A stretch of 64,000 nucleotides of DNA from Blattabacterium cuenoti (GTDB lineage: Bacteria; Bacteroidota; Bacteroidia; Flavobacteriales; Blattabacteriaceae). The notes under the pieces are model-generated. The model did no database searches. It had not been told where the DNA came from and worked only from the letters and a program-made list of their open reading frames with translations. This document shows positions 7,932-47,478 of this stretch, piece after piece. The position numbers and the translations under genes are program-made. Position 1 is the first letter of the stretch; each line of letters opens with the position of its first letter. Where the stretch lies: positions 143,377-207,376 of the forward strand of contig NZ_CP059190.1 of the NCBI RefSeq assembly GCF_014251555.1, given 5' to 3'.

Positions 7932-8726
7932 TTAAATAGCAACATCTCCCTTAATATGAGGAAAAGGATTATAGTCTTTTAATTGAAAATCTTTAAAACG
8001 AAATTCAAAAATATTTTTTACTGAGGGATTGAGTATCATTTTTGGAAGTGGTCTTGGAGTTCTTTCTATTTGTAATTTTGCTTGTTTGATATGGTTATTA
8101 TAGATATGAGCATCACCTATGGTGTGAATTAGTTCTTTTTCTTTTAAATTTAGAGTACTGGCTAACATAGTGAGTAGCAAAGCATAAGAAGCTATATTGA
8201 AAGGTAATCCTAGAAAAATATCTGCACTTCTCTGATATAATAGCAACGATAAATTTTTTTCAGATACATAGAATTGAAATAACAAATGGCAGGGAGGAAG
8301 CACCATATTTTGAATCATGCCCACATTCCAAGAAGAAACAACCAAACGTCGTGAATTGGGGTTCAATTTGATCTCTTCTATAAGAAAAGCAATTTGATCA
8401 ATAAAATGTCCATCATATGTAGGCCATTTTCTCCATTGCAATCCATATATTGGTCCTAATTCTCCATTTTTATCTGCCCATTCATCCCATATAGAAACTT
8501 TATGATCTTTTAAATATTGTATATTTGTGTCTCCTTTCAGAAACCATAATAATTCATAAATAATAGATCGTAAATCTAATTTTTTTGTGGTCAAAAGAGG
8601 AAATCCTTTTTCTAAATCGAATCTCATTTGATATCCAAATAGACTTATTGTGCCTATTCCAGTACGATCTTTTCTTTTTATTCCGTTTTTTAATACGTTT
8701 TTTAATAGATTTAAGTATTGTTTCAT
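7932..8726 (-). CDS. thyA: Thymidylate synthase
   Basis: The enzyme methylates dUMP to dTMP using methylenetetrahydrofolate. From the chosen ATG the protein is 264 residues, the same length as E. coli ThyA, and starts [15 protein letters not shown] like it. The catalytic cysteine is Cys146 in [10 protein letters not shown]. The folate- and dUMP-binding segments [28 protein letters not shown] and HIYNNH are intact. A start three codons upstream (8735) is possible but has no support in the family. The damaged dCMP deaminase at the left edge would normally supply its dUMP. Confidence 0.97.
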
Positions 8727-46528: not shown

Positions 46529-46953
46529 ATGGCAAAAATATTGGGAATAGATTATGGAAAAGTGATAACAGGTTTATCTATAACAGATAATGAACAAATA
46601 TTTGCATTTGGATTAGATGCTATTCCAACTAAAAAATTAATGAATTTTTTAAAATCGTTTTTATCTCATGAGAAAATAGATGAAATAGTTATAGGTTTAC
46701 CAAAAAGATTGAACAACCAAAAAGAGACATTAATAGAAACAGATATTCAAATATTTATAAATAAATTTCGTATAAGATATCCTCATATTTTGATAAAAAG
46801 ATTAGATGAACGTTTTACATCTAAAATGGCTTTTAATACTATGATAGAATTAGGTTTAAAAAAAAAAAAAGAAGAAAAAAAGTAATTTTAAACCAAATTA
46901 GTGCCACTATTATTTTACAGTCTTATCTCGCAAAAAAAGAAAAAGAAAACTAA
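46529..46953 (+). CDS. ruvX: RuvX/YqgF-family protein, C terminus shifted out of frame at an A13 tract
   Basis: The protein is a YqgF/RuvX RNase H-like nuclease, implicated in 16S rRNA 5' maturation and called a putative Holliday resolvase. The N-terminal catalytic motif is LGIDYGKVITGLSITD, with Glu and Asp motifs in EIVIGLPKRLN and LDERFTSKMAF. In the genomic frame a run of 13 A (46858-46870) leads to a stop at 46885, giving 118 residues. With one extra A the frame continues through ISATIILQSYLAKKEKEN to TAA at 46951-46953, giving 141 residues. The restored tail has the family motif ISAT at the expected 13-residue distance after the conserved GL. The restored stop is three bases before def. 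Either slippage, recent decay or a sequencing error explains it. Confidence 0.88.
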
Positions 46954-46956
46954 TTT

Positions 46957-47478
46957 ATGGTATTACCTATAATTCTTTATGGAAATCCTATTTTAAGAAA
47001 AAAATGTGTAGACATAGATTTGTCTTATTGTAAAAAAAGAATCAATCAATTAATAAAAGATATGTTTGAAACTATACATCAAGCAAAAGGAATAGGATTG
47101 GCTGCTCCTCAAATTGGAAAAAATATACGACTGTTTATAGTCGATACTCCTTATTTAAATGGAAAAGACAATTATAAAGAAGTTTTTATTAATGCTAAAA
47201 TATTAAAAATTCATGGAAAAGAGTTCAAATTTAATGAAGGATGTCTTAGCATTCCTGGAATAATGGGACATGTAAAGAGAAAATCTAATGTTTTGATTGA
47301 ATATTATGATCATAATTGGAAAAAACAAAAGAAAACCTTGACAGGAATATGTGCTAGAGTTATTCTGCATGAATATGATCATCTTGAAGGGAAACTTTTT
47401 ATAGATTACTTTTCTTCTACGAAGAAAAAAATAATAGAAAAAAAATTGATTAGTTTATCAGAAAAAAGTTCTTCATAA
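46957..47478 (+). CDS. def: Peptide deformylase
   Basis: Def removes the formyl group from nascent protein N termini. The three family motifs are present: [19 protein letters not shown] (metal Cys) and the zinc motif HEYDHLEG. The 173 residues are normal; the N terminus [16 protein letters not shown] is typical. It begins three bases after the restored ruvX stop, which supports ruvX normally being read to 46953 in the operon. Its end overlaps the opposing rplT end by six bases. Confidence 0.96.

Follow-up and report, generated by a model that had tools for sequence, protein, structure and literature searches.

A ruvX gene one base short at an A13 tract in a Blattabacterium genome: a recurrent −1 frameshift with a conserved tail and plausible partial rescue by polymerase slippage

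The window analysed here, a 64,000 bp stretch at positions 143377–207376 of the 638,736 bp Blattabacterium genome G000, contains a ruvX gene whose last 27 codons are out of frame, the gene being one A short, immediately upstream of def. The features of this locus, in window coordinates, are:

46529–46885, forward strand: ruvX (YqgF/RuvX, PF03652), the frame-0 open reading frame of 118 codons, from Pfam and the open reading frame listing
46837–46882, forward strand: zone in which the frame must change if body and tail are to be joined, from sequence and translation
46858–46870, forward strand: A13 tract, the longest homopolymer of the window; A14 in genomes G029 and G005
46870–46953, forward strand: out-of-frame ruvX tail, RRKKVILNQISATIILQSYLAKKEKEN plus TAA; last alpha helix of the RNase H-like fold
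46875–46881, forward strand: second A run, A7; A6 in genome G046, whose missing base is here
46876–46882, forward strand: A AAA AAG heptamer in frame-0 phase with TAA directly after it; a dnaX-type slippery sequence
46891–46893, forward strand: AAC codon (Asn) where the family has its third catalytic carboxylate; Asp in free-living relatives
46957–47478, forward strand: def, peptide deformylase (Pfam E = 7.5e-50), starting three bases past the tail stop

Frame 0 of ruvX ends at the TAA at 46883–46885, four codons past the A13 run, and its product, which lacks the last helix of the RuvX family, matches the Pfam RuvX profile over positions 2–117 of 134 (E = 2.1e-21); the PDB relatives of the in-frame RuvX ortholog are 1vhx, 7ess and 1nu0. 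The tail frame (−1) runs without a stop from 46837 as far as the TAA at 46951–46953 and reads ...FKKKKRRKKVILNQISATIILQSYLAKKEKEN*, and the segment VILNQISATIILQSYLAK is part of the tail peptide. On its own this peptide matches RuvX profile positions 109–133 (E = 0.0019, 19 bits), short of the curated cut-off for whole proteins, which is no surprise in a peptide of 25 residues. The zone in which the frame must change is bounded by the last tail-frame stop (TAA, 46834–46836) and by the frame-0 stop at 46883. The first-pass annotation had placed the genomic stop at 46885 after 13 A's, and had counted 13 residues from the conserved GL to the motif ISAT, 14 more residues after it, and three bases between the tail stop and def; all of its coordinates and spacings are right, since the run at 46858–46870 is exactly 13 long, the open frame is 46529–46885, the tail-frame translation has both spacings, and the tail stop is followed by the spacer TTT and the def ATG at 46957. 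The 13-residue GL–ISAT spacing that it ascribed to the family is also present in free-living relatives from the order, for example in L134 (GISKKKRRNKGLIDKISAT). The gene is one base short at a homopolymer of more than about nine A's, and it has no other lesion.

The ruvX region was extracted from all 49 genomes, including G000, and a contig scan returned a single congener, ESCALves (L081), beside distant relatives. A frameshift-aware aligner was used in place of tblastn chaining, which missed most of the ruvX shifts because of the short tail. Forty-seven genomes could be scored, with G021 (an assembly N at the tract) and G010 (a replaced tail) set apart. Body and tail share one frame in 40 of these 47, where one third would be expected by chance (p = 3e-13), and the remaining seven (G000, G004, G011, G013, G020, G026 and G046) are each exactly one base short, so that the −1 state of ruvX recurs in six other species. 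The distance from the body to the ISA of the tail motif is commonly 51 nt in the in-frame genomes and otherwise 48, 45 or 42 nt, and it is exactly 50 nt in all seven shifted genomes, never 49 or 52. The nearest in-frame relatives of G000, which are G029 and G005, have the same tail, and their tract differs from that of G000 by a single A. The body-to-ISA distance is also 51 nt in G010, but there (L095, about 8310–8450) an unrelated stretch, RIKKGRVTTAMLNSILWDRNISKETKLH, stands instead of the ruvX tail and runs in frame into def to make one long fused frame. No Pfam match was found for this replacement tail, which we take to resemble an insect retroelement and which may be an assembly chimera with host reads.

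On a tree built from 16 neighbouring genes the seven shifted genomes are seven tips, and parsimony gives six to seven separate losses. The only sister pair among them is G020 and G046, and since one of them has lost its base from the first A run and the other from the second, two losses give the shorter history. With terminal branches making up 74% of the tree length, all seven would fall on tips with p = 0.12, so tip-only placement by itself is a weak sign that the shifts are transient. Three of the seven shifted ruvX genes have runs of merely A10, and in many species the tract is broken by G or C.

The rate of shifts in ruvX can be compared with that in other genes by counting coding A/T runs of at least 10 in 19 genes of the 20 kb region around it. 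Shifts are found at 7 of 40 such runs in ruvX and at 6 of 316 elsewhere (Fisher p = 1.4e-4, for tracts that are not fully independent), and at runs of at least 12 the difference falls short of significance (p = 0.18). Genome G045 (L130) was left out of these rates; it has many indels in several genes of the 20 kb region, some of them outside long homopolymers, and looks like a low-accuracy assembly. All of the shifts lie in coding-strand A runs, T runs of that length being rare (9), and 12 of the 13 clear poly(A) cases are −1 (p = 0.003 if both directions were equally likely). Shifts of this type are present in other genes with long A runs too, where single indels interrupt otherwise intact copies of def (L098 in G013, A12; L128 in G043, A14), pcnB (L113 in G028, A11; L131 in G046, A10) and sua5 (L095 in G010, A15; L133 in G048, A11). 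Several of these shifted genes are expected to be essential. Apparent shifts at the last few residues of thrS and def were discarded as C-terminal variation.

Does the tail evolve as coding DNA in the genomes where it is out of frame? Selection was measured by pairwise and triplet counts of nonsynonymous and synonymous differences, with each shifted genome set against its nearest in-frame relative. The tails of the shifted pairs have 17 synonymous and 8 nonsynonymous differences, a pN/pS of 0.135, compared with 0.289 for the tails of in-frame pairs; the ruvX body in those shifted pairs stands at 0.32. No tail residue that is fixed across the in-frame genomes is altered in any of the seven shifted ones, none of the seven tails has an extra stop, and of the tail changes confined to shifted genomes 10 are synonymous and 3, all at variable positions, are nonsynonymous. 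The tail is likewise conserved in the other congeners, G010 excepted. The neutral drift that the first-pass annotation had named as evidence against it was looked for between species and is absent; over those branches the counts exclude it, although each shift could still be young. Purifying selection downstream of the indel is thus seen over the shifted pairs and not in G000 alone, whose tail core is identical to that of G029 (0 changes), a comparison without power for this one genome. As a comparison among genomes, the data show long-term selection for the joined frame. The first-pass annotation had argued that the longer product was, or still is, made: the past tense is strongly supported, because the tail is in frame in 40 of 47 genomes and evolves as coding DNA in the shifted ones, and the present tense is plausible.

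An error of assembly, in which the DNA has A14 and the consensus dropped one A here and likewise at this tract in the other shifted genomes, is a real but minor possibility. Short-read consensus fails at long A runs, all of the ruvX cases are −1, a single N stands exactly in place of the tract in G021, and every case is a singleton on the tree save the sister pair G020/G046, whose members are unlike in the place of the loss. The identity of the G000 and G029 tail cores also leaves room for a miscounted homopolymer as well as for a very recent loss. A pattern search found five coding A13/A14 runs in the G000 assembly, however, and the other four (in genes that are by inspection TatD-like, pyrF/E-like, RNase H-like and ClpX-like) lie inside open frames that continue past the tract, so a general undercount of A's is unlikely, while a single undercount is possible. 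Nor would a purely length-dependent error yield the excess of shifts in ruvX (with the caveat that it loses significance at runs of at least 12); three of the shifted ruvX genes have runs no longer than A10, and the −1 state probably stems from more than one sequencing project. A 117-A run at G000:C1:463241–463357 (L171), with T's before it and N's after it, is probably a gap-filling artefact, and together with the N at the tract of G021 it counsels caution about these assemblies. If the base is truly absent from the DNA, the gene might simply be in early decay, unrescued, with a tail too young to have degraded. The age of the shift in G000 is unconstrained by its tail, the catalytic residue of RuvX has changed in the genus, and ruvX is shifted more often than other genes, all of which would fit; we nevertheless think this unlikely, given the conserved tail in all other congeners but G010 and the fact that seven lineages, several of them on long terminal branches (0.13–0.24 substitutions per site), include no damaged tail.

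Rescue might instead be the work of the ribosome, with tRNA-Lys slipping by −1 on A AAA AAA inside the A13 tract or on A AAA AAG before the stop. All seven ruvX genes call for a −1 shift, as do 12 of the 13 poly(A) cases, which is the direction that A AAA AAA/G favours, and G000, G004 and G046 have a phased A AAA AAG TAA; a slip at the dnaX-type heptamer at 46876–46882 would yield KKKKEEKK instead of KKKKRRKK. Deletion-biased mutation accounts equally well for the direction, however, no stable stimulatory structure was found downstream of the heptamer (z-score −0.39), A AAA AAG is missing before the stop in G011, G013, G020 and G026, and the heptamer is a by-product of Lys codons and incidental in origin. 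The shift arrangement is also not conserved across species, as the 40 in-frame genomes attest, and we consider ribosomal rescue unlikely, though a serious rival. A programmed two-product switch, in which the 118-residue form has a function of its own and the tract sets the ratio, is most improbable: the recurrence at one site and the alike ends of several short forms (KKKKEEKK or similar) are in its favour, but the in-frame majority could make a short form by slippage only, and in many species G or C breaks up the tract.

The best explanation, which we hold with moderate confidence, is loss of an A from an A14 tract with partial rescue by RNA polymerase slippage at the A13 that is left. We infer that one A has gone, in the DNA itself, from an A14 tract coding for the Lys-rich loop before the last helix, and that this happened recently, on the terminal branch to G000. 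An exact transcript would then give the 118-residue protein without its last helix, and RNA polymerase, which slips on runs of about nine or more A's, would produce a fraction of transcripts with 14 A's; from these the full 141-residue RuvX would be translated, in an amount sufficient to hold the gene under selection. With one A added, the A13 transcript reads through the loop exactly as in the in-frame relatives. That full RuvX is still made in G000, in part by slippage, is plausible and agrees with published rescue at poly(A) in insect endosymbionts. In aphid and ant endosymbionts, poly(A) slippage corrects 12–50% of transcripts (Tamas 2008, as reported in PMC5009743), and Blochmannia genomes have 4–8 poly(A)-frameshifted genes each (PMC3017870, PMC4389277). 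So easily mutated a tract would let the −1 state arise repeatedly in the genus, and later loss or restoration of that state would leave almost all lineages in frame. Full rescue would let the tracts drift through all three frames, which they do not, and so rescue would be incomplete; the long-standing maintenance of the frame in 40 of 47 genomes likewise makes it probable that rescue, by either route, is partial and that shifted alleles are transient. A bolder proposal is that the ruvX tract is a tolerated, genus-wide frameshift hotspot, always −1 because ribosomes and polymerase can fix −1 but not +1 at A runs of Lys codons, with the shifted states as intermediates to length changes of a whole codon; we find it distinctly improbable.

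What the tail contributes can be judged from YqgF structures, in which the last helix bears the third catalytic carboxylate, and in Deinococcus the change of D122 to alanine blocks RNase activity (PMC9601230). The codon at 46891–46893 would correspond to D122 of DrYqgF, and the 118-residue RuvX is unlikely to be active because this catalytic last helix is missing from it. The residue itself has changed in the genus: of 39 in-frame Blattabacterium genomes, 33 have Asn there, 5 have His and 1 has Asp, and all seven shifted genomes have Asn, while in 29 order-level loci where the motif was found it is Asp, except in the small-genome L157 (Asn). Of the three carboxylates, those of GxDxG and DER are present in G000, and the last-helix Asp is replaced by Asn. 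Homology by profile over the RNase H-like core (E = 2e-21) stands, but these replacements put RuvX nuclease activity in doubt across the genus, and the nuclease may have been altered or lost while the RuvX protein was kept. The Lys/Arg-rich loop that the tract codes for is conserved in free-living relatives too; the tract therefore spells a genuine feature in AT-biased form. A published scan reported positive selection at one site of a Blattabacterium Holliday junction resolvase-like gene (PMC6128925), a signal that could come from the Asp-to-Asn site or from a misaligned frameshifted tail.

Poly(A) frameshifting in insect symbionts was already known, and what is new here is its recurrence at one site, always as −1. 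Like ruvX, the Buchnera and Blochmannia cases of Tamas et al. (2008) and Wernegreen et al. (2010), as described in reviews and later papers, concern an AT-rich obligate insect symbiont with one indel within a long run of coding A's, a gene otherwise intact and a tail under purifying selection; the ruvX case, from the Bacteroidota, differs in having separate, tip-confined shifts, where some of the Blochmannia frameshifts are common to more than one species. Blochmannia vafer, with eight frameshifted genes (PMC3017870), likewise has poly(A) indels in housekeeping genes without rate acceleration, but one of its frameshifts (dnaX) is common to two species, whereas in Blattabacterium one site has been hit six to seven times in the genus. 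E. coli dnaX, which uses −1 ribosomal frameshifting, resembles ruvX in its frame-0-phased A AAA AAG with a stop close after it; ruvX lacks the downstream stem-loop, its arrangement is not conserved in in-frame relatives, and any shift would be corrective rather than programmed. The flavobacterial endosymbiont Walczuchella (PMC3971599), a symbiont of related type, has homopolymer-frameshifted pseudogenes that its authors thought might be functional, but that work traced no single gene across species.

Partial rescue by polymerase slippage at ruvX would extend to Blattabacterium a tolerance of poly(A) frameshifts that is documented in gammaproteobacterial insect symbionts. The genus offers a natural replicate in which one site is shifted in seven species and in frame in forty, and a comparison of shifted with in-frame transcripts would gauge the extent of slippage rescue on which a symbiont depends and would test the pseudogene annotations of such genes.
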